Shown in pieces: positions 18,201 to 62,224 of a stretch of DNA of 64,000 nt; the stretch's first letter is position 1; each line of letters begins with the position of its first letter. Location: the NCBI GenBank assembly GCA_019096065.1, contig JAGUCH010000002.1:10118501-10182500 (forward strand). The letters are read 5' to 3'. The stretch is from Paracyclopina nana. Lineage: Eukaryota; Arthropoda; Copepoda; Cyclopoida; Cyclopettidae. Both the position numbers and the translations under genes were made by a program. Under the pieces are notes generated by a model. The model had not been told where the DNA came from, did no database searches, and saw nothing but the letters and a program-made list of their open reading frames with translations.

Positions 18201-21200
18201 CTCGAGCTTTCCAATTCCTTTTGATATACTGGCCAGTCTGGTTGCTGAAGGGCCTTGTGGTAGTCGATAGGCTCTTCTCCTTCAAAAGTAGATTCGTATT
18301 GAGGGAGCTGCTTATACGACTGTTCACCATTGAGGAATCTGAAACGACATTTTTAATTGCATTAATAAATCTTTGCTTCCAATCTTGTGTAATTATTCAA
18401 TGCGTGCGGCATATTGTCATTTTGCATTTAAGCATTTGACATTTGAACTTTCTCCTAAAAAGGTTGTACTTGCTGCCTTCTTGCATTCTTAATTGTTATG
18501 GGTGCAAAATTCTTGACATTTTGACAGATGAGTTTGCCCACAGCTCAATTGTGTTTACGCTGACGGTCCATAGCTACTTAAATAAATAAAAGCGTCATAC
18601 CTTTCAAAGTCATCTGCTTGAAAGTCTTGCTCCTGTTGATATCTCTCCTTTGCATTTTCACTAATTTCATTCTCTGCTTTCCTAATGGGGGCTTCTTTAG
18701 CCTCTTCCTCACGAAATTGCTTGTCTTCTTCGACCAGAATTTGTCCCAAAGCCTTGAGCTTCTCGGTGCTCTTTTGGCTTGCCAATTCTGCCAAGCTTTT
18801 CCCCTTGTTTTTCTTTTCCTTCTCCTCTTGCTGCTTGCGCAATTTTTCTTCCTTTTTCCGCAGTTTTTCAGCCTTGGCTTTTTCCTCCTTTTCCAAACGC
18901 TCCCTCATTTCAATATCCTTTTTCTCCTGTTGTTTAGCCTCCTTTTCTTTTTTTCTTCTTTCCTTTTCTTCCTTCTGCTGCTGCGCTTTCAATTCTTTTT
19001 CCCTTTTCTTTCTATCTTTTTCCTGGGCTTTCATCATCTTCTTAACCTCCTTTTCAGTCATCGGTTTTCCATCAGAGTTGATCATTGGCCCCCTAAATGG
19101 GGAATCATCAGTACCACCAATTGCTGCCAAATCAGTTTCGTCCATATAATCGTCTTCATCAGCTAATTGTTGCTCGTCAAAAAGAATTTCTTGTTCTTCG
19201 TCAAATGGATAATCAGCTTGATCAACCACGTAATGCTCAGATCTAGAAAATTCACCAATTACAGCAGTTACTGAAGCCTCCCCATCATAAGCAACCACAT
19301 TTTTTAGTTCAGATGCCATGTTTGTTGGAGCTCTTGGTTCCTTTGCTTCGTTTTCTAGTGCTTCCTTTTCCTTCGCCACTTTTTCTCTTTCTTCCTTTTC
19401 CTTAGCTTTCCTTTCCTTCGCTTCCTTTTCATTTAGCATGTTTTCTCTTGCTTCCTTTTCCTTAGCTTCCTTTTCCTTAGCTTCCCTTTCCTTCGCTTCC
19501 TTTTCCTTTACTACTTTTTCTCTTGCTTCCTTTTCCTTAGCTTCCTTTTCCTTAGCTTCCCTTTCCTTTGCTTCCCTTTCCCTTGCTTCCTTTTCCTTTA
19601 CTACTTTTTCTCTTGCTTCCTTTTCCTTAGCTTCCTTTTCTTCTCTTTCCTTTTCCCTTGCTTGCTTCTCCTTCTTTTCTTGTTGCTCTCTTACTTTTTC
19701 TAGCTTTTCCCTAACTGCTTTTTCCTTGGCTTCTTTTTCCCTTTTTTCTTTCTCTTGCTTTTCCCTTAGCTTTCTCTCCTTCTCCTCTCTCTCTTTTTCT
19801 AGCTTCTCTCTGTGTTTCCTCTCCTTCTCTTCTTTCTCTCTTTTCTCCTTTTCCTCTTTTTCCTTGAGCTTTCGTTCGCGGTCTTCTTTTTCCTTTCTCT
19901 CCTTTTCTGCCTTCTCTTTGATTTTCTTCTCCTTTTCTTTGGCCTCCCTCTCTGCCTTTTCCCTTTTCTCTTTCTCTCTTTGTTCCTTCGGATCTGCTGC
20001 CTCATTTTTGCCCTTTTGTGCCTTTGCTTCAAGATTGACTTTCGCGTACGGCGGCGGATCATCTTTGCGTGGAAGTTCCACGTCTTCGTAGACTTTTCTC
20101 CCAACTGGTTCGTATCCTCCGTCTTCGACATTCTTTGCGGGAGGTTTAGTTGGCTGAATGTCGGGTTTTGTGTCGCGATTGACTTTTGGTGGCTCGGGCA
20201 GCGCGGTAAATGCCTTCCTCGGGGGCAAGGCCTCTATCCTTGGAGCATTGCTTTTGGCAACTTGCTCATTTCCGGCCCTATCACTTTTCTTGAGCACTCC
20301 TGGAGACATTTTGTTGAGAGGCTTAATTGGCATGGGTGCCCTGTTGGCTGCCCCCACGGGCTCGTATCCACCATCGTCCACGTATCTGCTGCTTTCCCTA
20401 ATTTTGTCGTGATTTTTGTTCAGTTTCCGTTCTTTCGATTTGCTCCGCGAGCGTCCACATATCGGCGGGGACTTGGCTCTCTCCTCGTTTTCCAGCGGCT
20501 CCGGCGAAGAGTCCCGAAGAAGGTCTTCAATCGTAGGCGGATCGGCTCCCTTTGGAAGGTGGAACCACTCTCGGGGTATGCTGCGGTCTTTCCGTCTCAT
20601 GGTGACCCTGAAAAAGATTGGGGTTTCTCATGCTTCTCCGAGCTCTCTAATGGCTTTCTCTCTCACGTTGTTATGTCTGTCGGCAGCTTGACCGGATTAA
20701 TCCAGACCTCTGCATCCTGGTCATGCGACAAATGAGTCCAAGGGTAGCCGCCCTTGGCCTTTTGCTCCTGGATGTCTTCCCACATCGTTGGTGAGACAGT
20801 GCCTTCAAAGAAAGAAGCCCATTGTGTTATTGCTGGAGCCTTTAAGCACAATGCAATGTAATTAGCGGGTTAATATTTTGTCTGGCAGTGTGGGTTACGA
20901 AAAAAGCAGCACCTGATGCAATGGCTCCCCATCTGGAGGAGACCATGGCATAGTGCTCCCTCCATCTTGGCGAGGACGTCCTCAAGGTTCGAGATGAGGC
21001 CGATATAGGTCTCTGCTCAATCAACAGTTGATCACGAAGACGTTGACGAGCAGCAGCGGCAGCTGCACTGGCCTCGCCAGAGGCTGAAAAGTCGAGATTA
21101 TTAACAAAAGTGTATTAGTGTTGTGAATGATTTTAAAAGAGAGCAAACGCGGCGCATAAAACTGGGCGCTACCGTTTCTGTACAGTTGCAGGTTGTCGAG

Positions 21201-31040: not shown

Positions 31041-31232
31041 ATTAGTGATGGAGAGAGTTTCAGCTTGGCTTGAAGCTTGAAACTAAAATCCAGCTTGAGC
31101 TACATAAGCAAAAAGCTTGGGATCACTCGAACCAAATTTTGAAAAGGTTGAAAACCTTGAAGCCCAAAAAAATGCAAAGCTTGAAAAAGCTTGACACCAA
31201 AAAATTTCGAGACTTCAATTGCTTGGGATCGA

Positions 31233-31859
31233 CACAGTGGGGACATCCCGTTGCAAAAAGTGGCGTTCGGAAATCTCGCGAAATGGCAGCATCATTCAAA
31301 CTCTCTCAAAACACGGCAGTTTAAAATTGGAAATTTCGAGGCCGAAAACAATTCAATCATGATTGTGGCATCAAAATTAATTGTTGGTTACATTACAAAT
31401 TATGATAACTATTAACGGAAATTTGCGATTCGCTCAAATGTTCCGCGAAAAGGGGATCCTGAAGTTAAGCTATTTTTGATCATTTTCAAATATTAATTTG
31501 CTCGTTAGCCCTCAAAAGTTCTCAACAATTTTTGCATGAAACAATCAGTTCATTACCTGAAATCATTATGACAAAGTTTTATTTGCGCATTTTGGCGCCA
31601 TTTTGAGATATCACAGTTTTCCCTGAGCCCATTTTGCCGACTTCAGCAGCCCTTTTTCAATTTTCAAAACAATAACAAACTCAGTAATAGCTGACAAAAC
31701 CGTTTTCAATGCACTTTTCTATGAAAAATCATCAATTCAAGCCCAAAAATTTGAAAACTAGGCCTTAAATCTCTGTTTGAAAGGCCTACGGCATTAAGTA
31801 CTAGAATATTTCACTTTGCCGCCAAACGCCACTTTTCGCATAGAGATGACCCCACTGTG
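31233..31859 (+). mobile_element. CACAGTGGGG MITE, copy 1
   Basis: This 627-bp element has termini CACAGTGGGGACATC and GATGACCCCACTGTG. A near-identical copy lies in opposite orientation at 32137-32764. No transposase frame is present. The flanks share GGATCG on both sides, offset by a base, a possible target duplication. Confidence 0.82.
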
Positions 31860-31923: not shown

Positions 31924-32980
31924 TAGAGGTGTATCGGGCTCAGGCCCGAGCCCGAAAGCCCGATACCAATTTCTGCCCCGAGTTAAATAAGACCCCAGCC
32001 CAAGCCCGACTCGGGCCGATTTTCAGAAAGCCCGAAAAAGCCATAAGTCATTTTCAAAAAGCCAGAAGTGGCCCGAATGACATTTTTTTAAATTCAAAAA
32101 CTTGTTCAAAATCAGAAAAACAGTTGCTCTAGATTGCACAGTGGGGTCATCTCTATGCGAAAAGTGGCGTTTGGCGGCAAAGTGAAATATTCTAGTACTT
32201 AATGCCGTAGGCCTTTCAAACAGAGATTTAAGGCCTAGTTTTCAAATTTTTGGGCTTGAATTGATGATTTTTCATAGAAAAGTGCATTGAAAACGGTTTT
32301 GTCAGCTATTACTGAGTTTGTTATTGTTTTGAATATTCAAAAAGGGCTGCTGAAGTCGGCAAAATGGGCTCAGTGAAAACTGTGATATCTCAAAATGGCG
32401 CCAAAATGCGCAAATAAAACTTTGTCATAATGATTTCAGGTATTCAACTGAATGTTTTATGCAAAAATTATTGAGGAATTTTGAGGACTAACGAGCAAAT
32501 TAATATTTGAAAATGATTTAAAAAAGCTTAACTTCAGGGTCCCCCTTTTGCGGAAAAAATTGAGCGAATCGCAAATTTCCATAAACAGTTATCGTAGTAT
32601 GTAATGTAACCAAAATTTAATTTTAATGCCACAATCATGATCCTATTACTTTCGGCCTCGAAATTTCCAATTTTTAACTACCGTGTTTTCAGTGAGTTTG
32701 AAAGATGCTGCCATTTCGCGAGATTTCCGAACGCCACTTTTTGCAACGGGATGTCCCCACTGTGGATTGTGAGCTTTAAAGTTGAGTTTGATTGTTAAGT
32801 TTCCCTTCATTTGCATAATCTTCAGTAATTGAGGTGATTTTCTTAACAAAAAAGTTATTTTTATTCAGATTTTTCCTGAAAAATTGTAGATTTTGTCTCG
32901 GCCCGAAAAGCCCGTAACATTTATTGACTGGCCTGTAAAAGAAGCCCGACTTACGACTTTACTTAGCCAGATACACCTCT
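31924..32980. mobile_element. hAT-like MITE, TAGAGGTGTATC family, copy 2 (interrupted)
   Basis: The termini are TAGAGGTGTATCGGGCT and AGCCAGATACACCTCTA. The flanking 8-mers GCTCATTC and GCTCATAC differ at one base, the expected hAT target duplication. About 430 bases belong to this element; the rest is the CACAGTGGGG insertion at 32137-32764. Confidence 0.82.
32137..32764 (-). mobile_element. CACAGTGGGG MITE, copy 2, nested in a hAT-like MITE
   Basis: This is the inverted, nearly identical partner of 31233-31859. It sits inside the element at 31924-32980: sequence before it (GCTCTAGATTG) and after it (GATTGTGAGCTT) lines up with an uninterrupted stretch near 30909-30940. GATTG is present on both sides, consistent with a short target duplication. 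Confidence 0.85.
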
Positions 32981-33680: not shown

Positions 33681-34403
33681 TTAGGCTCTCTTCGGCTGAT
33701 TTGGTAGACCAAAATTCAAGAATGATATGTTGAGTGTCTGGCTTGACCACGGAGTGTCAGCAAATACCGTAATCATGCCATTCGATCTGGGAGAGAGGAA
33801 GATACAGTGTTGCTTTTCTACATTGGCACTAGTCTTCTTCTGCGATGATAACTCCTCCGCGTGGCGTGTGAGAAGACACATGAGATTGTAGGGTTCGAGT
33901 AGTCTGGCAATCTGAGCCAAAAGTTGGTTGACGTGTCTTTCATATGAGAGATGTAGGCTCTCGGTGAGTCTCCTTTCTTGGTAAAATAGAGGGGAAAAGG
34001 GGTCATCCATGACAATCATATTGACTAGGGGAGACTGGGCAAGCAACTCGGGTAATCGAGCAAGTTGCATTTGTAGGGAACTCCAATTGAAAACCCCCAC
34101 AAGGTGGACTCGATCAGCTGCTGATGTAAAAGTACATCTCAAAAGCTGTGGTGTAATGTCTCCACGACAGTTGAAAAAGACCACGTGGCCTGCATCTTGC
34201 GCGAGCTGTCTAGCTAAATTGATAGCCAGCAAAGTTTTTCCACTACTGTGCGGGCCGCAAATTTGGATTATGCCTGATTTGCCGTCCGCAAAAAATTCTT
34301 TAAAAATGCCCAAATTGTGCGTCGAGATGAGGGATCGCGGCCTCATCCTTTCGTAGACAGCAAGGCCGCTCTCCTGGTTGAGGTTGACAGTTGAACGCTC
34401 CAT
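33681..34403 (-). CDS. RAD51-family (RecA-fold) paralog
   Basis: This 240-residue protein is a RecA-fold ATPase resembling RAD51 paralogs of homologous recombination. Walker A is GPHSSGKT (about residues 50-57), followed by LLAINLARQLA, then VVFFNCRGDITPQLL, and a Walker-B-like NMIVMDD near residue 129. FNWSSLQMQLARLPELL matches the RAD51D/XRCC2 layout where the bound strand is read. There is no N-terminal helical domain. I cannot decide between RAD51D, XRCC2 or a SWS1-like protein. The start is ATG 34403, directly preceded by the acceptor TTTCAG; the longer frame upstream would run back through the acceptor. The preceding F-box gene ends only 59 bases upstream, which argues for co-transcription. 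Confidence 0.78.
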   Translation of the reverse strand: MERSTVNLNQESGLAVYERMRPRSLISTHNLGIFKEFFADGKSGIIQICGPHSSGKTLLAINLARQLAQDAGHVVFFNCRGDITPQLLRCTFTSAADRVHLVGVFNWSSLQMQLARLPELLAQSPLVNMIVMDDPFSPLFYQERRLTESLHLSYERHVNQLLAQIARLLEPYNLMCLLTRHAEELSSQKKTSANVEKQHCIFLSPRSNGMITVFADTPWSSQTLNISFLNFGLPNQPKRA

Positions 34404-34462
34404 CTGAAACGAACAAACAAATGACGGATAACAACGCATAATATCAAGCGCATCGAGACAAT
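34404..34462 (-). promoter_or_regulatory. intercistronic region F-box>RAD51-like with splice acceptor at the ATG
   Basis: The F-box stop codon TGA is overlapped by AATAAA. Only 59 bases later the sequence TTCGTTTCAG abuts the next ATG. There is no room for a promoter plus 5' exon, so the acceptor would have to be used by a trans-spliced leader or by read-through splicing. The layout is seen; the mechanism is inferred. Confidence 0.65.
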
Positions 34463-36394
34463 TTATTCATCCTCCAACAGCTCGAATATGGCCAGACCTC
34501 GGTTTCCGATGGTCTTTAAGCTAGCGTTTTTCGCCCAATTTTCCACTGTGGCTGGCTTGACTTTCTTGCAGAAAGACACATCAATGTGCCTCAGGCTGGT
34601 GCAACTTCGCACAAGAAGGTCTATTCCGTCGTTAGTTATTTCTTGACAGCCTTCAACATCAAAAGTCTTGAGCCTTTTGCAACTTTGCGAAAACTGAGCC
34701 AAAGCATCGCTGGTTAGTCTGCATTGTTTCGCCGAAAAAACCTCAAGATGAGGGTTGTTAGCGGCCAAATGCAGAAAACCAGCTTCACCAACAGATGTGC
34801 ACAAGTTCAAGTTAATAGCACGAAGGTCATCAATTGCTAAGCCATGCACTAAAGTCAACTCGGTAATCTTCAAGTTCTGTAGCTCTAAGTGAAGAAGCTT
34901 TTTCAGTTGTCGGAATCCACTTTGAACGCTTTTACAGTCTGTCAGATTAGACGAAAGGTGTTCATGTCTCCGTATTTCCTCTCTCAGCTCAGCCTCGGCC
35001 CTTGAACCCAAAAATATCTTGTCATCGCTAAATTGAGCCTTCGCGAGACTTGTCACATCAGAGGAAACAAAACCCAAATCGGTGAGTCTACTGCAGTTAC
35101 TGATGATCAAAACCTCTAGATTCGAACAATGCTTTGCCACAGCTTGCAGAGCACCATCATCCAGGCCCTCGTGAGCATTTTTCAGCTCCAAATGAGTCAA
35201 GCTAATTAAGCAAGGAGCCAAGTTAATGATGAACTCGGGAGAGCTGATTCCAAAAGAGTTCATTTTTAAAGCACGGAGGTGACAGGTGAGTCCCTTGTTG
35301 GCAATCAGCCCTTGTACCACATGACTGCTAGGAATATCGCACTCAGATGCATTGAGAGCTTCCAGCTGATCAAGTTGCTCAAAGCATGCTTGCATCCCTT
35401 TAGGTGCAGAAAGGCCAATCATCGATAATTCTCTGAGGTTTGCTGACAAGGCTTGAAAGAGGCTGACACATTGGGCTGGATTGTCAACCAAGATTTTTCT
35501 GCACAAGTCAATGTTCAATGTCTCCAAATATGGCTGATGTTGAACAAATTTTAGCAAAGACGCTTGAGAGATGTCGGTGCATTTGCCAACGTTGACATGC
35601 TTCAAAATGAGCCCCTTGATACCACCAATCTCTTCCAGTCCAGTCGTAGATAAATTCGAACAGTAGAGGTCAATTGAGGCTATCAGTGATGCGCGATCTG
35701 ACAAAAATCGCAAGATATTCTTCAACGTCAGCACAGAAGGTGAGTTGAATTCCTCCACGGTTCCAGGATAATGCTTCTTGTATATCCCCGCATGGCTCAG
35801 GATCTTGTCACCTCTCAAGCTTAAACTCGTGACGTTGGCCATGCAACTGACAATTCTGTTGAACAACTGGTCAGTTAAGTAGGGCGAATTGTAGCTCAAG
35901 TCCAAAGAATTTACGCGCCGCAAGCTTGAACGAACTTCAGCACAGTCATCTTTGTTCGCCAAAAGGCAGCCAGAAATGAACAAGTCACGAGCGTTGCGAA
36001 TGGCCAAAGCTGTCAAGGAGTCGGTTTGCTTCAACAGCAGCACCAATTCAGCCTCAGTAACCACAGAAACATTATCTAAGGTCAGTGATGTCAGCTTTGA
36101 CAACAAGCTAGCCCAACTGCATGGAGGCCTGAGGGAGAAGAGGCTAACTGTCAAGTTTCGGAGGCAAAGGCTTTTCACGCCTGATGTGACATTACTTTCA
36201 AGAAGGCCACCTGCGTCTAAGCCCTCTATGAGGTCATCATCTTGATCGAAAAGGATCTGACTGTTTGAATGAATTTGCGGGTTGAGGAAGGCCCATCGCC
36301 ATTGCTTGCAGACCAAGTTGCATTGAAGCTTGTCAGACAAGGGTAGGTATGCCAAAATGCTTGACAGCACTTCTTGGGGCAAGCAATCAGCCAT
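34463..36394 (-). CDS. F-box/leucine-rich-repeat protein (SCF substrate receptor)
   Basis: This is a 643-residue FBXL-type protein expected to bring substrates to SKP1-CUL1 ubiquitin ligases. The F-box occupies residues 1-42 (MADCLPQEVLSSILAYLPL, then KLQCNLVCKQW). The rest is irregular leucine-rich repeats of 25-27 residues, with cysteine-type repeats clearest at the end (CKRLKTFDVEGCQEITNDGI and LRHIDVSFCKKV). No introns are seen. I chose ATG 36394. The open frame runs 63 codons further upstream, but that stretch overlaps the last coding exon of KXD1 in another frame, and KXD1 coding is conserved there. An acceptor (TTGCTCAG) lies 11 bases before this ATG. The exact FBXL ortholog is not assigned. 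Confidence 0.88.
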   Translation of the reverse strand: MADCLPQEVLSSILAYLPLSDKLQCNLVCKQWRWAFLNPQIHSNSQILFDQDDDLIEGLDAGGLLESNVTSGVKSLCLRNLTVSLFSLRPPCSWASLLSKLTSLTLDNVSVVTEAELVLLLKQTDSLTALAIRNARDLFISGCLLANKDDCAEVRSSLRRVNSLDLSYNSPYLTDQLFNRIVSCMANVTSLSLRGDKILSHAGIYKKHYPGTVEEFNSPSVLTLKNILRFLSDRASLIASIDLYCSNLSTTGLEEIGGIKGLILKHVNVGKCTDISQASLLKFVQHQPYLETLNIDLCRKILVDNPAQCVSLFQALSANLRELSMIGLSAPKGMQACFEQLDQLEALNASECDIPSSHVVQGLIANKGLTCHLRALKMNSFGISSPEFIINLAPCLISLTHLELKNAHEGLDDGALQAVAKHCSNLEVLIISNCSRLTDLGFVSSDVTSLAKAQFSDDKIFLGSRAEAELREEIRRHEHLSSNLTDCKSVQSGFRQLKKLLHLELQNLKITELTLVHGLAIDDLRAINLNLCTSVGEAGFLHLAANNPHLEVFSAKQCRLTSDALAQFSQSCKRLKTFDVEGCQEITNDGIDLLVRSCTSLRHIDVSFCKKVKPATVENWAKNASLKTIGNRGLAIFELLEDE

Positions 36395-36485
36395 TCTCGA
36401 GCAACTGAGCAATGTTTGTGTGCAACACAAAAATAGCTTGCCTCTGACGGCCAAAACTTGAACTACCCTTCCACTTGTCACAGCA
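36395..36485 (-). promoter_or_regulatory. intercistronic region KXD1>F-box with splice acceptor
   Basis: This is 91 bases between the KXD1 stop (36486) and the F-box ATG. It contains ACATTGCTCAG with AG at 36406-36405. No AATAAA is seen. It is consistent with an operon junction. Confidence 0.55.
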
Positions 36486-37074
36486 CTAGTTGGCTTGACC
36501 TTCCTCCTTGATGGTGCCGATAGATTGCTTCGGCTGCTGCTTGGCCCGCTTTTTCTCTTTGATTGCCTCGTCATATTCGTCATCTTCTTCTTTCACTTGA
36601 TCAAAACTGCCTCCAATTGCTTGGAATAAAAGCCACGAATCAGGAAATTGCAGAGTAAGCTTCAAAGAAAATCGTACTCACCTCTGTATATTTCTGGCTG
36701 CTGTTGCGAGATCTTGGTCTTGAGCCCTCTGATACGCTTGAAAATGACCTCAAAGTCGCGTTTGAGCTCAGCGAGGAAAATCATGTGATTTCTGAAATCC
36801 TTTGTCGCACGTTCCAACCTGGACGCCGAGAGAGCGTTGCAGTTTGCAAGCATTTCGTTCGTCTTCTCAAATCTTTGCAGCCTGACAAAAAGGACATCAT
36901 GCTTAAAATTATTTGCGAAAGCTTTACTTTTCTAGCTTACATTTTCTTCTGAGCCCTGACCATGGATTCGACGTCTTGTTGGTTGACAAGGCCAGCTAGG
37001 CCTTGCACGAAAACTTCAGCGGCCGTATAATTTTGATAAATGCTGCATTCCATGTCTGGACCCGTCGCATTCAT
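36486..37074 (-). CDS. KXD1: KXD1, BORC complex subunit
   Basis: This is a subunit of BORC, which couples lysosomes to kinesin through Arl8. Exons 37074-36941, 36881-36682 and 36619-36486 give 155 residues. The family core is unmistakable: VESMVRAQK, RFEKTNEML, LSASRLERATKDF, LAELKRDFEVIFKRIRGLK. The last exon adds an acidic then lysine-rich tail ending at TAG 36488-36486. Its reading frame differs from the long F-box frame on the same strand, which resolves the start of that neighbour. Intron 2 ends in a rather weak acceptor (TTCCAAG), the least certain join. KXD1 is the first gene of a three-gene same-strand cluster. Confidence 0.9.
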
Positions 37075-53905: not shown

Positions 53906-55619
53906 TTAATCAAGGAAGCAATTTTTCACAATATCTAAGTCCGACTTCGATATATCGAGAGGGTCGTTTTCAAGCTTTTCGATAAGGGATCGAAGCAGAC
54001 TTTTCTCCTTATCCTCCAAAAACATGACTAATGCGGAAATTCGCGGAACTTTAGAAATTCCAACGAGAGGCTTCGAAATTTGAGGAAAGTTGACCAGAGC
54101 ATGAATGATGCTTGAAAATACAGCAGGTTCCATTGAGTGTTTGAATACCCGTGGATAGTCAGCTACGGAGAGTAAGTTGAGATAGGCAAACTGGTCCTCA
54201 TGCTCCTTCAGTTGCTGCCAAACATTGGTAAATTGGACTGAAGTACTAGGCTTCTTCAAAGTTGGCTTCGTCCTGCTGAAGACTACGTTTCTGCCTTCGT
54301 TAATTTCAGCCTCAACTCTTTTGGTCTCACCAAGACTTTTGGTGGCAGCGTCCGATTTTTCCGGAGCATTATTAGCTGCAGTTTCGTCTTGATCGCATGT
54401 TGGTTCTGAGGCATCGTCATTTAAGACTTCTATTTTGGGACGAGCCGTAGTCACCTGCTCTTTACATTCAGTTAAGACAAAATCGTTCAGCTTTTCACTT
54501 GAATTGGAAATCTCTACGATTTCAATTTTTTTGAATGGTCCCGAGGAGCGCTTGTGGACAGGAAGATGCACTGGCATAACTTGTCCTGGAATAGAAGGCT
54601 CAATCGGCTTGGAATATTTTTCTTTCAAGTTTTTGGAGAATGTTTTCGAGGAAGATTTCCTGCCGGCTTCTTTCTTTTTGCCCTCGGTTGGAGCATTTTT
54701 CATCCTGAAGCGCAATTCCTCAATTTCAGCTTGCGCTTGCTTATTGCTTGGCTCCAATTCGACGACTTTTTGGAAGTCAGCCATTGATTTCCCGTAATTG
54801 AGCATGTTCTTCCGCGCAGTGGCTCTTCTCTGATAAGCTTTCACATAAGTTGGATCTAGACTGTAAGGGGAAATTAGCTCATCCTAAATTAATTTGCTCA
54901 CTCCACCCAAATATACAAGGCGGTGAAGCACACTGAACGCTTAGCTAGAAAAGTAACATTGTGAATTACCCACCTGATGGCCAGTGTACAGTCCGACTCA
55001 GCAAGGCTCCAGTCTTTCATTTTAAGGTATGCCATGGCTCGGTTGGCCGGCAAAACTGCATTTTTAGGGTCACATTTCATGCCATTAGTGTAGCTGCTGA
55101 CAGCCTCGGAAAATTTTCCTTGCTAAAAAAGGAAAGGACACAATAATGCTTAAGCACTCCACATACTAAATAGGTAGATTATACTTTGAAATATTCGTTC
55201 CCCTTGTCCTTTTCGACAATAGCTTTCTGTAGCTTCATCTCCTCGGTCAATTCGACCGTATCTTGGCCAGCGTTACCGTCCCCGTCAGCTGCATCGACCT
55301 CTTCAAGGGCCTTTTCAACGTCGAATTTTGCCCAGGCATCATACGCATTGGAGGGTATCCTGGTATTAACTTTGCACTTTTTCTCCTCTTTTTCATCGTC
55401 ATCTTCATCAGGAGCTTTAAGTTGGACGCTGTTCCTTAGTTCGTCGACGCTCCGAAGAGGCTGAAACTTTTTCTCTCGAGATTCCGCCTTCCTTTTTCTC
55501 AACTGCTCATCTTTGACGCCAATCTCCTTGGCCCAATTCCCCATGTCTCGCAAAAAGTTTTGCAACTCGTCGTTGTTTTGTTTCATTTGATGTTGCAACT
55601 TGATGATATCCTCAGACAT
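53906..55619 (-). CDS. RPAP3: RPAP3, R2TP co-chaperone subunit
   Basis: RPAP3 tethers Hsp90/Hsp70 to the R2TP complex for assembly of RNA polymerases, snoRNPs and PIKKs. Exons 55619-55185, 55122-54974 and 54860-53906 give 512 residues. The N-terminus has the family motif NNDELQNFLRDMGNWAKEI and AYDAWAKFDVEKALEE. One TPR domain follows (about 135-225: KDKGNEYFKQGKFSEA, AVLPANRAMAYLKMK, TYVKAYQRRATAR). The C-terminal RPAP3_C domain runs about 410-510 (FTNVWQQLKEHEDQFAYL and IHALVNFPQISK). Human RPAP3 has two TPR domains; only one is visible here. Its ATG is 44 bases after the OXSM stop, with TTCGTTTCAG four bases before it. Confidence 0.93.
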
Positions 55620-55663
55620 GGCGCTGAAACGAATGAGGATGTGATTATTTTCTGAGTGAATTA
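55620..55663 (-). promoter_or_regulatory. 44-bp intercistronic region OXSM>RPAP3 with splice acceptor
   Basis: Between the OXSM TAA and the RPAP3 ATG lie only 44 bases, including CATTCGTTTCAG with AG at 55625-55624. The same TTCGTTTCAG word occurs at the F-box>RAD51-like junction. No AATAAA is present. Independent transcription of RPAP3 would need a promoter inside OXSM. Confidence 0.65.
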
Positions 55664-57430
55664 TTATTTCGCAGATAGTTTAGAGCCGGGAATATATTCG
55701 GCGAATAACAATGAGACATTGGTGCCACCGAAGCCAAAAGAATTCTTCAGCACAAGGCGTCGGGTATCACGTTTCTTTTCACTTTCATAAATGGACTCTC
55801 GCACAAGTTGGACACCTTTCCCGATGCCTTCCTCAGGCTCGTCGAGATTGAGTATTCCAGGAATTTGCCCGGTTTGCAGCGAAATCGCTGCCAATGAGGA
55901 CTCAATCGCACCTGCAGCTCCTATCATATGACCGAGGTTGCTCTTGTGGGCAGTCACGTACGGTCCGTTGTGCGGAATCCGCACATTCCAAAAGTCTTGA
56001 TGGGACTCAATGAGGCCCAAACAGCCTCTAACGGCATTCATTTCGGCAACATCACCAAGAGGCGTCGAGGTTGCATGTGCATTAACTAGCCATAGCTCAT
56101 CATCGATGTCTTCCATTACGTTGGCATTGGAGAAAGCGCGCATGACGGCCAAAAGAGCACCTGCACCATCAGGCTTAGCCGCAGTGATATGATCCGCATC
56201 ACACGAAGCCCCGTAGCCAATTACTTCGCAATAGATGTTAGCACCACGCTTCAGAGCGTGCTGAAGCTCCTCCAGCACAAGGACTGCAGCACCTTCCGCC
56301 ATGACGAAACCATCCCGGTCCTTGTCAAAGGGTCTTGATGCTCTGCGAGGATCATCCACAAACTTGGTTGACAGAGCCCGAAGACGGTTGAAGCCAACAA
56401 GAGAGAGAGCATTGATGCACGTGTCTGTGCCGCCCGCAACCATGACATCCGCTTGGCCACTTTTGATGAAAAAGAAAGCATCGCCGATGGAATGCGCTCC
56501 CGTTGAGCAAGCCGTCGATGCAGTGTGATTGGGACCACGGAATCCGTGACGAATAGCAACAAAACCGGACGCCATATTACACAGGATTCTTGGGACGAAA
56601 TACGGGCTCACTTTTTTGCCCTTCCCACTAGAAAAATGAAGAAGACGGACAATTGAAGAAAATACAATAGAGACCAATAATGACGACTGCTGACCTGGTA
56701 ACCAAACTGTGCGACTTCGCAATGTAATCGAGGTCGACCATGGAATTGCCTATGCACACTCCAGTTCGAAACTTGTCATAATCCCCAGTTGGATTCCAGT
56801 CCGCCTATGAGAGCAGGCAAATTTATTAGATCATTTATTATTGCACGCGTTGGCGTCCCTTGTCGATGAAAGACATGCCGGTCAGAAGCATGGAGAGTCG
56901 CAGTGGTAGACAAAGTACAGATCGATTAGTCTGTCGTAGGTCAGATCTTTGTTCTTCACGTTGAAGTATTTACCTACTTGAAGCAGGGATTTGAGCGTGG
57001 CGTATTCGGCGAACCGAACGGCCGGGGATTTGGCACGTTCCAAGCCTCCGCAGAGGCTATCGCAATCTTGCTTCCAATGGAACGGAACATCAGAGCAGTA
57101 ATGGATGCCGTACTTTTGGTACGCAATGTTGTTGTCATCATCATCGTCGTCGTCTTCTACGACGACGGGTCGGACCCCGGTTTCGCCTTGCATGGCTTTG
57201 TCAAAGACCTCTTTGGTGTCGGTACCTAACGGCGAGATCGTACCCACGCCAGTGATGACAATTCTTCTAGTTTTGGTGTCGAGCATTCCGCGATGCTTTA
57301 GCTCCTTCGAAATGTCTTGCGACAGTGTGAGGTAGAACTCGTGTTCCAAGCTTTTGGGAACTGCGCTGGATCGATGAAATCCAGCAGTCGAGCTCAATGG
57401 CAGCGAAGCTTTGGCGAGTTGCCGCAGCAT
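55664..57430 (-). CDS. OXSM: mitochondrial 3-oxoacyl-ACP synthase (KAS, OXSM)
   Basis: This condensing enzyme of mitochondrial type II fatty-acid synthesis extends malonyl-ACP and supports lipoate formation. Exons 57430-56978, 56804-56695 and 56627-55664 give 508 residues. The N-terminus MLRQLAKASLPLSS is a plausible presequence, then RRIVITGVGTISPLG. The catalytic triad is visible: Cys in STACSTGAHSIGDAF, His in VNAHATSTPLGD and His in AHKSNLGHMIGAAGA, with the final FGFGGTNVSLLF loop. An insert with eight Asp residues (EDDDDDDD) near residue 80 is unusual and extends the protein beyond the usual ~460. The first intron (173 bp) is long for this window, and its donor choice (CAA before GTAGGT) was fixed by phase. 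Confidence 0.92.
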
Positions 57431-57954: not shown

Positions 57955-58759
57955 ATGAAGATCAATGTGGCTTACCCGGCCACGGGTTGTCAAAAGCTTT
58001 TCGAGATCAACGATGAAATCAAGGTATGTCTGCTACTATCATCAGATTTTCAAGTATGATTTTTTCACTCGAGCCTCGTTTCTGTGTTAGGTTCGCCCCT
58101 TTTACGAAAAGCGCATGGGCCAAGAGGTCGATGCCGCTACCTTGGGTGACGAATGGAACGGCTACGTGTTCCGCATCACTGGAGGCAACGACAAGCAGGG
58201 ATTCCCCATGAAGCAGGGCGTCCTCACCCAAGGACGTGTGAGGCTGCTCCTCTCAAAGGGCCACTCCTGCTACCGTCAAAGGCGTACCGGAGAGCGCAAG
58301 CGCAAGTCTGTCCGTGGCTGCATTGTCGATGGCAATCTCTCCGTCATCGCCGTGACCATTGTGAAGAAGGGCGATAACGAGATTCCCGGCCTCACCGACT
58401 CGACCGTGCCCCGCCGCCTGGGCCCCAAGAGAGCCTCCAAGATCCGCAAGTTGTTCAACTTGACCAAGGATGACAACGTGTGCCAGTACGTCATCAAGAG
58501 GCCCTTGCCCGTCAAGGAGGGCAAGAAGGCTCAGTTCAAGGCCCCCAAGGTCCAGCGTTTGGTGACGCCAATCATGTTGCAAAGGAAGCGTCATCGCTTG
58601 GCGCTCAAGCGTAAGCGTGCCGAGAAGAACCGTCAGGCCGCCGCCGAGTATGCCAAGATCCTGGCTCAGCGTCAAAAGGAGGCTAAGGAGGCCAAGGAGT
58701 TGAGAAGAAAGAGGTCGGCCTCTCTCCGTGAGTCCCGTAATTCGGTGAAAAGTTCGTAA
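57955..58759 (+). CDS. RpS6: 40S ribosomal protein S6 (eS6)
   Basis: This is a small-subunit ribosomal protein and the classic substrate of S6 kinase. Exons 57955-58023 and 58091-58759 give 245 residues. It starts [18 protein letters not shown], then [35 protein letters not shown] and the basic [20 protein letters not shown]. The C-terminal tail keeps the phosphorylation cluster ([18 protein letters not shown]). Codon use is markedly G/C-biased at third positions, as expected of a highly expressed gene. AATAAA at 58808-58813. The CFAP58 ATG is 160 bases past the stop on the same strand. Confidence 0.98.
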
Positions 58760-58918
58760 AAGTTTACCTTCATTTATGTCATCGTTGCCCACGACTGAGC
58801 AATGACGAATAAAAGCCGAAAAAAAATATCTTTGCTTTCTATGCTATTTGCCACCCCCTCGTGTTAGGTCGATATTTAGTCTTGTTTGTAGTTACTGCTA
58901 ACGTTGGCTAGAGTGAAA

Positions 58919-61900
58919 ATGGAGCTGAAAGCTGAAGGAGGAGCGAGCGAGGAAGACACTTCCTTGAATGTATCGGATACTGATGAGGCCGGTAGCGTTT
59001 CCGTACCAGTTGACGATGAAGGCTTTGAAACTTTGGCCGCGGAAATCCGCGAGGTCTTGGCCGAGTTGGCTCAAGACAAGGCCATGGATGCCTTTAGGGG
59101 TGAATACGAGAAGCTGTTCAATGCCCTCGAAAAGTCGCACAAAAATGAGAAAAGGCTCAATACCAAGTGTCAAGAGCTGGCATCGGAAATTGCTAGCAAA
59201 CAGGCTGCAGTGGATGCTGCCCAAGACAAGACCCAGGAGGACCAAGACACTGTTGAGAGCCTCAAAAAGGAAATTGAAAAAGCCTGGAAGATGGTGGATA
59301 TGACCCAGGAAAGGGAGGAACGAGCCCGAGAGACCATAGAGGCTTTGAACACTGAAATTCAAAATTTGACTAAAGTCATTGAGGAGAAAACATTGGGCGC
59401 CGAGGATACCAATTTGAATGAGTTGCGAAAGCTACGCGATGAATTGACAAGCCAAAGGGACAACCTGAAAAGCGAGGTCTCCCAACTGAAAAGTGCTCAA
59501 GAAGATACGCTTCAGCAAATTGCAGGTGCTCATTTAGTATTTTAACAAATGTGGCAATTTATTTCATCTCCGTGTTTTTGCAATGTCCAGGCTTGAAAGA
59601 TGAGAACGGCAAACTGGAGGCAAAAATTAGCAGCCTTTCCCAAGAGGTGCAATCACGCACTAATGAGATGAATAGAGAAATCAGGAGAAAGGAGAGAGCA
59701 GAAAGGGAAGTAAAGCAACTGAAAGGAGACTTGGAGGAGAAAAACAAGGACATTCTTGAGCTGAAAGAAGACAAGCTTGTAATACAGGTGAAGAGCGAGA
59801 AATGAATTGATTGTTCGTAAAACGTCATTCTAAATCACTCTAAAATAGGCTACGGTGGATAGGCTCGAGAATGCATTGACTGATCAAAAGGTGATCAATG
59901 ATGGCTTGTCAAAACAACTTGAGGCTGCAAACAACACCGTCAGTGACTTGCAAAAGCAATTTGAGTCGCAAGGAGTGAGTATGCAGCAACTTGAGCAAGA
60001 AGTGAGCTTGAAGGCTGGAGAAGTAGCAGCCAAAGAAGAGGATATCGTGAAGGCTCGACTGGAAATCACTCGATCTGCTAGGGAGCTGGAAGACCTCAAG
60101 AAGAAAGTTCTTGCCATTGAGAAGACCAAAGAAGAGTTGGTGACCGACCGAAGTAGACTCAAGACTGAGATCACCACTCTCAAGACACAAATTGCCGAGC
60201 ATAAGCACCAGGTAAATGTCTGATAGATAATAGGACGATATATGCTGTTGACGCATTGCTTGCAGGCGCTTGTGGACAAAAAGAAACAAGATCAGGCAAG
60301 GCAATCTCTAGCTGCGCTTGAACATAACATGAAAAGAGGCCAAGTGGCCCAGCAGAAGCAGCTCAAAGAAATACAAAAAGGTGTAAGCACCTGCTCCAGC
60401 CTCAGAAGCCAAATCAAAACCCTCGAAGCGAAAGTGGAAAAGCAAAGAAAGGCTATTTCCCAAACCGAAGAGGAGAGAAATCATTACCTGCAAGAAGCTA
60501 CTCAGCAGGTAAAACGCAACATGATGTTTTTGTCACAGCCTACATTTGCCCATGACACTTTGACAAGACTAGCTTCCATGCACAAACGGCAAAATATAGC
60601 GTACGCTATTTTTCATAAAGAGTTTGCATGGGGGTGTACGTGAACAGGACATATCGATATGCACAACTCTTTACAATTCCGAAACTTTTTTTATTCTCTT
60701 GAAGTAGGGTTCATTAATTCGAAAGCTAAGGGTTCCAGATTTTTTTAAGTGGCATAGCAGGGTATACTACTACATGCAGTGGTTTAAGTCAACTTCCATG
60801 CCCCGAAATCAAGGAATATTTTTAAAAAGTGAAAGCTCCTACATAGTGGGCCATCATTGTAATGCTGATAAAGTATTGAAGGAGCAAAGTAGCTTTGTTA
60901 TACAGATTTCTTCTGTAAATAGGCCAAAAGAGTGGAGAGTCTCCTTGATGAAGTGCGAGATGCTGAAAGCTCGGTTTATACGTACCGCAAGGATTTGCGA
61001 GACTTGGGCACCCAACTGAAGCAGCAGCAAAACTTGTACACTGCCGTCCGCAATGACCGAACAGGCCTCTCCAAAACGCTGACCGAGGCCCAAGATGAAA
61101 TTTCCGACTTGAAGGGCAAATTGCGAGTCCTCAGCCACCAATTTGACCAGCTCAAGGAGGAAATCGAGGCCAAGGAGGCCGCGCTGGTCAAGGAGAGCCA
61201 AGAGCAGGTGAGGCTGCAAAAGGAAAAGGACGAGTTGATCGTTCAGGTGGACAAGGCCAAGTCGGCCGCCAAGGAGATGGCCAAGTCCAAGAGCGAGACC
61301 GAGAGGAGTCACATGATGCTGCGCGACAGGCTCAAAATGGTGGAAGATGAGCTGGCCAAGACAAAGGCTCACCTGGACAAGGCTCTCAGGGAGCGCTCTC
61401 AGTTGGACCACAGACTGGCCTCCGTGGCCGCGGAGGTGGAGGCTGGCAAAAGGAAGCTATCGGTGCAGGAACACGCTCTTGCTCGCGGCGAGTGTGCCTA
61501 CAAGGAGCAAGAGGAGGACATCCGTGTGCTCAAGCTGGAAGTGAAGCGGCTGAGGCAGGAGGAGAGCTACTTGCAAAAGAGCTCGCAAAACATGGAGGAG
61601 ATGAAGAAGGAAGTGCTGCAGTTGCAAAAGGACCTTTTGCAAGAAAAGACCAAGGTGAAGTCGCTGCAGGCCGAGCTGGAGAATCCGCTCAACATGCATC
61701 GGTGGCGCAAGCTGGAGGGCAAGGATCCTCCGACCCTGGAGCTGATCCAGAAAATACAGTCGCTGCAAAAGCGCCTCATTGCCCGCAACGAGGACATCGT
61801 TGATCGAGAGCTGTCCCTTGCAGACAAGGAGAAGCAAGTGGCTGACCTGAGGGCCAGCCTGGCCAGACAGCCGGGCGCGGATGTCATTGACGAGGCTAGA

Positions 61901-62224
61901 TCGCTCAAGATCGAGCTGCAGAAGAAGACCAAGGTGATCCAGAGCCTGGCGGCAGAGCGAAACATGTTCGTCACCGACAACGAGCAAGTGAGGGCGCAGA
62001 TGGACGCGATGGCGGAGGAGTTGCACGAGGCGAGGAAGAAGGCGCTGGAAATGGCCAAAAAGTACCAGAAGGCCAAGGAGCAACTGGCCAAGCTGCCTCA
62101 GCGCAGCAAGGAGGAGACTTCCGAGATCACGCTGCTGCCGTCCGCAACCGTGGCACCGTCCAAGCAAAAGTTCATCGGCGGAGGCTTCAATTTCTCGCCC
62201 GCTCCCTTTCCTCTAGCAATGTAA
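58919..62224 (+). CDS. CFAP58: CFAP58 (CCDC147), axonemal coiled-coil protein
   Basis: This is a coiled-coil protein of motile cilia and sperm flagella. Exons 58919-59525, 59591-59787, 59849-60211, 60266-60508 and 60923-62224 give 903 residues, close to the human length of about 870. Nearly the whole chain is coiled coil. Family blocks are EKAWKMVDMTQEREERARE, ETIEALNTEIQNLTK, and the C-terminal PLNMHRWRKLEGKDPPTLE, then LIQKIQSLQKRLIARNE and LARQPGADV. Intron 4 is 414 bases, longer than the others. The protein ends with a short glycine/proline tail. It lies 160 bases downstream of RpS6. Its presence suggests the organism makes motile axonemes, probably in sperm. Confidence 0.9.

Follow-up and report, generated by a model that had tools for sequence, protein, structure and literature searches.

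A 64,000-nucleotide (nt) stretch of the genome of the copepod Paracyclopina nana (GenBank assembly GCA_019096065.1, contig JAGUCH010000002.1, positions 10,118,501 to 10,182,500; hereafter the window, from whose first letter positions are numbered unless another scale is given) carries on its minus strand, between 37074 and 33681, three unrelated genes that run head to tail with gaps of 91 and 59 nt. The open reading frames confirm this layout, which an initial annotation of the same DNA had described and had taken for an operon resolved by spliced-leader (SL) trans-splicing. The gaps resemble cramped separate promoters more than a proven operon, and we give an even chance to the reading in which the genes are transcribed separately, from initiators squeezed into the gaps. 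The layout, the gaps, the consensus sites and their local statistics are observed; from them we infer use of these initiators and mRNAs free of an added leader.

The first gene, of the BORC/BLOC-1 subunit family (KXD1), encodes 155 residues in three exons (37074-36941, 36881-36682 and 36619-36486), as defined by a splice model and a KxDL domain. The domain lies in exon 2 (36686-36880, C2:10155186-10155380; E-value 8e-16) and was the sole match reported across the 92-Mb genome (18 candidates scored). The 91-nt gap that follows (36395..36485) contains TCAGTT (36408-36403) and neither AATAAA nor ATTAAA. The second gene, an F-box/LRR gene, is a single exon of 643 codons (34463..36394) with an F-box-like domain (E-value 3e-8). 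Fifteen homologues were reported, ten of them at 38-65% identity; among eight of these ten that were compared, four share the same start methionine, two are longer by 12 and approximately 29 residues, and two are fragments. At its C terminus (34463-34500, minus strand) the protein stops approximately 20-35 residues short of the acidic, proline-rich tails that its homologues carry. Its stop codon overlaps an AATAAA, confirmed at 34467 as previously described, and gene packing may have removed the tail. The 59-nt gap that follows (34404..34462) holds this AATAAA, a TCATTT (A at 34422) and a TTTCAG abutting the next ATG.

The third gene (33681..34403), a single exon of 240 codons with its own AATAAA 18 nt past the stop, encodes a RecA/RAD51-like ATPase with the Walker A motif GPHSSGKT. 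It matches the RadB model with an E-value of 4e-7, far under the model's own cut-off, and the RecA chains of the Protein Data Bank (PDB) with 3e-14 for multi-unit constructs and merely 0.011 for the best single chain. A search of a large protein collection (564 candidates) gave no homologues at an E-value of 1 or better.

Each gap contains an exact match to TCAKTY, given as the arthropod initiator consensus in PMC1913499 (Table 1, citing Cherbas 1993) and in PMC6483594. Ahead of the F-box/LRR gene the match is TCAGTT (36403..36408, minus strand), with its A at 36406, 12 nt before the ATG; it continues the sequence TTGCTCAG, which had been read as a splice acceptor. Ahead of the RAD51-like gene it is TCATTT, with the A 19 nt before the ATG. 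Both gaps thus offer a core promoter element, as separately promoted genes need, where transcription could plausibly begin, and the assertion of the initial annotation that separate promoters would not fit does not hold.

The same motif recurs at other closely spaced genes. Six downstream genes with same-strand neighbours less than about 400 nt away form a tandem set (F-box/LRR, RAD51-like, RPAP3, TMEM209, CFAP58 and g62609), which was compared with 12 other starts; all 18 were chosen by reading, with some confidence, in the window. The golgin gene, 521 nt after STIP1, was classed with the others, and the starts of the calmodulin-like, Kir, allantoinase, aminotransferase, zinc-finger and RPS6 genes were left out. 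TCAKTY lies within 40 nt of the ATG in five of the six tandem genes, CFAP58 being the miss, versus one of the 12 others (Fisher P = 0.004); its A stands 15 nt before the ATG of RPAP3 (TCATTC), 14 nt before that of g62609 (TCAGTC) and 34 nt before that of TMEM209 (TCAGTT). Against a background of 298 in 5170 ATGs (5.8%) with the motif within 40 nt, five in six has a binomial P of 3e-6. The motif is not a by-product of splice sites, because it shows no excess at real cis acceptors (2 observed versus 1.6 expected, n = 21); at predicted ones, 5 were observed versus 6.1 expected (n = 82). In an unguided scan of 22,558 patterns TYGTKT ranked first, STCAKT second and TCAKTY third, and these three alone covered five genes.

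According to this interpretation, genome compaction would have packed unrelated genes head to tail, each transcribed from its own start site. KXD1 would start inside a region of approximately 400 bp common with the divergent STX16 gene, and the F-box/LRR and RAD51-like genes would start at their gap initiators, in both cases past the stop codon of the gene upstream. The 3' ends of upstream transcripts would then overlap the 5' ends of downstream transcripts. Transcription from initiators explains the F-box/LRR gene and needs no new machinery.

The sites proposed as splice acceptors differ sharply in quality. Acceptors were scored with a 20-nt matrix built from 23 reference acceptors read in 144 kb (the window and its flanks), two of which are merely inferred 5' untranslated region (UTR) sites; the leave-one-out scores of this reference set span 0.7-9.6 bits. 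An acceptor had been claimed before each downstream ATG. The claim stands for the RAD51-like gene, whose TTTCAG (34404..34409, minus strand), directly 5' of the ATG, scores 9.7 bits and tops all 23 references, and falls for the F-box/LRR gene, whose TTGCTCAG scores -0.4 bits, under all 23; the AG of the latter ends 10 nt before the ATG, correcting the 11 bases given earlier. The RAD51-like score is equalled by 0.4% of all AGs, and 0.9% of ATGs have an equal site within 40 nt, whereas the F-box/LRR score is equalled by 45% of all AGs. One of the two claimed acceptors, that of the RAD51-like gene, therefore exceeds chance. An earlier 14-site matrix, since superseded by the 23-site matrix, was less favourable to it, with 13% of ATGs as good.

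Moreover, this good RAD51-like acceptor has no cis donor close by. At a threshold of 5.8 bits, the lower quartile of 20 real donors, there is no donor in the 2.09 kb of the F-box/LRR gene and gap; at the average of 1.95 per kb, four would be expected. At 5.3 bits or more there is none in the F-box/LRR coding sequence, versus 1.0-5.2 per kb in nine other long exons, and approximately 1% of 2.09-kb segments are similarly empty. The nearest good donors are KXD1's own, at 36940 and 36681 (8.4 and 9.3 bits). The last RPS6 exon and the gap to CFAP58 likewise contain no donor of at least 5.8 bits.

Across the tandem set, acceptors score 8.7 bits at RPAP3, 11.0 at CFAP58 (27 nt before the ATG), 4.6 at TMEM209 and 5.6 at g62609. 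Ranked by the highest-scoring acceptor found within 40 nt of the ATG, the six tandem genes surpass the 12 others (Mann-Whitney P = 0.012). Strong acceptors also occur outside such pairs, at TOM20 (7.8 bits), which is not in a same-strand pair, and at the gene at 20600 (8.9 bits), which was not classed as a pair member. Two signals thus compete: of the six downstream genes, three have a strong acceptor and five an initiator. Both are present at RAD51-like and RPAP3, the initiator alone at F-box/LRR, the acceptor alone at CFAP58, and an initiator with a middling acceptor at TMEM209 and g62609.

The strong orphan splice site of the RAD51-like gene keeps the operon idea alive. One pre-mRNA would run from the KXD1 promoter, polyadenylation would free the upstream cistrons, and a leader would be trans-spliced before the downstream ATGs, an arrangement that we regard as possible though not probable. 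Head-to-tail packing is consistent with it, the 91- and 59-nt gaps and a third of 44 nt (OXSM > RPAP3) falling within the tens to hundreds of nt between same-strand genes that SL-resolved operons need. The donor-less RAD51-like acceptor, the better acceptors of the tandem set with strong sites at RAD51-like, RPAP3 and CFAP58, the emptiness of both donor-free tracts, the AATAAA at the F-box/LRR stop and the occurrence of SL trans-splicing in copepods and amphipods, as described in PMC4664967 and PMC5111886, point the same way. However, the F-box/LRR acceptor fails, the enrichment of TCAKTY in the gaps is not something an SL operon predicts, and same-strand neighbours are not in excess (approximately 9 of 23, by reading of the window). 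Stated in full, with KXD1 > F-box/LRR > RAD51-like, OXSM > RPAP3 and RPS6 > CFAP58 as arthropod operons that would receive, at orphan acceptors 0-27 nt before their ATGs, a leader unrelated to the calanoid, caligid, amphipod and nematode ones, the proposal seems to us rather doubtful.

Several observations weigh against separate promoters and are set out here together. The strong acceptor-like sites of RAD51-like, RPAP3 and CFAP58 are left unexplained by such promoters and are explained by SL trans-splicing; the combined acceptor P is 1.6e-4 for the six tandem genes versus 0.25 for the 12 others. TYGTKT, which ranked first in the unguided scan, is rich in T and occurs within 40 nt of the ATG in five of the six tandem genes (P = 5e-7). 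Such a run fits a polypyrimidine tract, or one downstream of a poly(A) site, better than it fits an initiator, which favours the rival explanations, the SL operon among them. Among 60 sets of six randomly drawn ATGs, four contained a motif with a P of 3e-6 or better and none contained one that reached 5e-7; since four such sets match it, TCAKTY alone would be unremarkable were it not a motif known beforehand. The test covers only six tandem genes, and the motif was spotted in the data before it was tested. Genome-wide, neither TCATTTG (413 observed versus approximately 370 expected) nor TCAGTTG (245 versus approximately 311) is enriched 6-14 nt before ATGGC, the expectations being derived from 144-kb frequencies, the second by hand, and the reversed-pattern controls (17 and 17) being unsuitable, as their composition is too different. 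No TATA or downstream promoter element (DPE) stands at the set distance from the initiator of the F-box/LRR or RAD51-like gene, and among the tandem starts a TATA-like run is found at g62609 only. Finally, KXD1 and OXSM have no AATAAA or ATTAAA until the end of the next gene. Many arthropod promoters have neither TATA nor DPE, so neither is strictly required.

The poly(A) signals bear on a further alternative, cotranscription without a leader. Dicistronic mRNAs (KXD1 with F-box/LRR, OXSM with RPAP3) would end at the poly(A) signal of the second gene, or 5' exons would be shared through cis-splicing from the KXD1 donors at 36940 and 36681 to the downstream acceptors. The missing signals of KXD1 and OXSM, which are the first genes at two of the three tightest junctions, suit this scheme, as does the strength of the KXD1 donors; by reading of phases, KXD1 exon 1 would join the F-box/LRR site in frame. 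The absence of a signal at KXD1 and OXSM is nevertheless weak evidence, because the golgin, LAP and MFS genes, which are not upstream members of pairs, also have no AATAAA or ATTAAA within 150 nt of the stop. The scheme also has to use the weak F-box/LRR acceptor and demands alternative introns of approximately 0.3-2.5 kb, by which KXD1 exons or the entire F-box/LRR gene would be skipped; we consider it unlikely. Loss of the poly(A) signal was tried as a mark of tandem pairs and rejected, with no clear difference between upstream genes (three of six: KXD1, OXSM and, with an uncertain end, the zinc-finger gene that precedes TMEM209) and others (three of 13); F-box/LRR and RPAP3, whose signals overlap their stops, were counted as signal-bearing.

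The three-gene arrangement is not unique, because two similar pairs share the window. OXSM > RPAP3 (53906-57430, minus strand) has a junction at 55619..55664 with a 44-nt gap, in which TCATTC (A at 55634) is accompanied by a TTTCAG 4 nt before the ATG; neither AATAAA nor ATTAAA occurs between the OXSM and RPAP3 stops. A search with RPAP3 gave 577 homologues, and those with names among the best 120 belong to vertebrates. RPS6 > CFAP58 (57955-62224, plus strand) has a 159-nt gap (58760..58919) with AATAAA at 58808, a TTTGTAG 27 nt before the ATG and no TCAKTY within 40 nt. By reading of the sequence, RPS6 probably starts at a pyrimidine-rich site and carries its own cis intron within the 5' UTR; its apparent start on its own promoter is a point against an SL-resolved operon. 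An apparent tight pair at 128252/128310 (window scale) is, by reading, probably a cis intron. Elsewhere in the genome, two Ras-like genes lie head to tail with a gap of approximately 105 nt (C4:4781575-4782746, minus strand); no TCAKTY was seen there, and acceptors were judged by eye. A simple gene finder, which merged or split many genes, served only the search for additional pairs and the inverted duplication described below.

The initial annotation had proposed a search for an SL RNA gene, and none was found among the calanoid, caligid, amphipod, SL1 and 5S-linked kinds. Across the whole genome, a calanoid SL hairpin pattern gave three scattered, dissimilar matches, none repeated (0 in the reversed control), an amphipod leader pattern gave one match versus three in the reversed control, and the caligid leader, allowing up to three mismatches, gave 0. 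Of 27,226 first-look candidates for the Rfam SL1 model, 50 were scored and 0 matched. Two types of 5S array unit (470 and 347 bp) were read without an SL-like gene, the A(1-2)T(4-6)G site was absent from the two 5S loci scanned (L003 and L010), and five 5S loci scanned against Rfam at lax settings returned 35 matches, every one 5S. These negatives, which count against an SL operon, cover the leader kinds named and are compatible with a leader unrelated to them. A motif derived from the sequences upstream of seven U1 and 10 of 11 U5 loci was considered as a search pattern for small nuclear RNA (snRNA) promoters and was too loose.

Other features of these RNA genes were noted in passing. The 5S arrays occupy C1 at approximately 0.913-0.932 Mb (L006-L031, with matches on to 0.940) and approximately 1.277-1.287 Mb (L003-L005), and are of two kinds: the 470-bp units hold two diverged 5S copies each, the 347-bp units a single copy. 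Seven U1 and 11 U5 snRNA matches were reported in the genome, and many of 17 U1/U5 upstream regions have a loose TCAAA(A)-type element approximately 50-60 nt before the gene, perhaps an snRNA promoter element.

The assembly comprises ten contigs totalling 91.95 Mb, of which nine measure 6-18 Mb, and six of 12 contig-end pieces carry degenerate arrays of TTAGG, which we take to be the arthropod type of telomere repeat. An inverted duplication (62609-71478 and 85063-92298, window scale) repeats a predicted 517-residue gene (start MVARVMMVFLL, 62609, plus strand) and an 814-residue gene in opposite orientation. It contains a second CFAP58-like gene (87855-89243); the presence of two suggests motile cilia or sperm tails, which would be unexpected in copepods and acariform mites, though this is only a hint. 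One open frame (L050:1593-3254, approximately 115593-117254 on the window scale, plus strand) joins a phosphoglycerate mutase (PGAM; His_Phos_1), a short Cys-rich linker and GAPDH; we know of no such fusion, no search having been made. A repeat whose translation contains QWGHPVAKSGVRKSREMAASFKL is present in two copies of opposite orientation near the cluster (31070-31324, plus strand, and 32646-32849, minus strand).

SL operons are described in nematodes, tunicates and chaetognaths (PMC12460157; PMC1657053), where they have been annotated as genes less than 250 bp apart and validated by SL (PMC12460157). The P. nana cluster resembles them in its spacing, in its unrelated genes and in the acceptor before one downstream ATG, and differs in its weak F-box/LRR acceptor, its gap initiators and the absence of an SL RNA among the kinds searched. 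The SL trans-splicing of copepods and amphipods (PMC4664967; PMC5111886) is likewise an arthropod system in which an acceptor a few nt before the ATG is possible; unlike the P. nana case, it uses leaders that have no repeated match in this genome. Calanoid copepods that use SL are described as trans-splicing their ribosomal protein mRNAs (PMC4664967), unlike our reading of RPS6. According to an excerpt of PMC7986045, operons had not been reported in copepods or amphipods as of 2021, and none in arthropods appeared among the literature titles and abstract openings in the matches listed. If the cluster were an SL operon, arthropods would gain operons, which would be new as far as the literature search reached. 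If the gap initiators are used, the cluster illustrates how working promoters can be accommodated in arthropod gaps of less than 100 nt, and it cautions that a TCAG ahead of an ATG may pass for a splice acceptor and yet be an initiator. The closest parallel to transcription from separate promoters is Dimorphilus gyrociliatus, described as having a compact animal genome (73.8 Mb) without operons or trans-splicing (PMC7854359). It belongs to another phylum, and its regulatory profile was measured whereas that of P. nana would follow from consensus sites; both have a gene-dense genome with short intergenic gaps and, in P. nana presumably, own promoters. Compact genomes without operons are already known, and on the best reading the KXD1, F-box/LRR and RAD51-like genes are an ordinary tight gene cluster.

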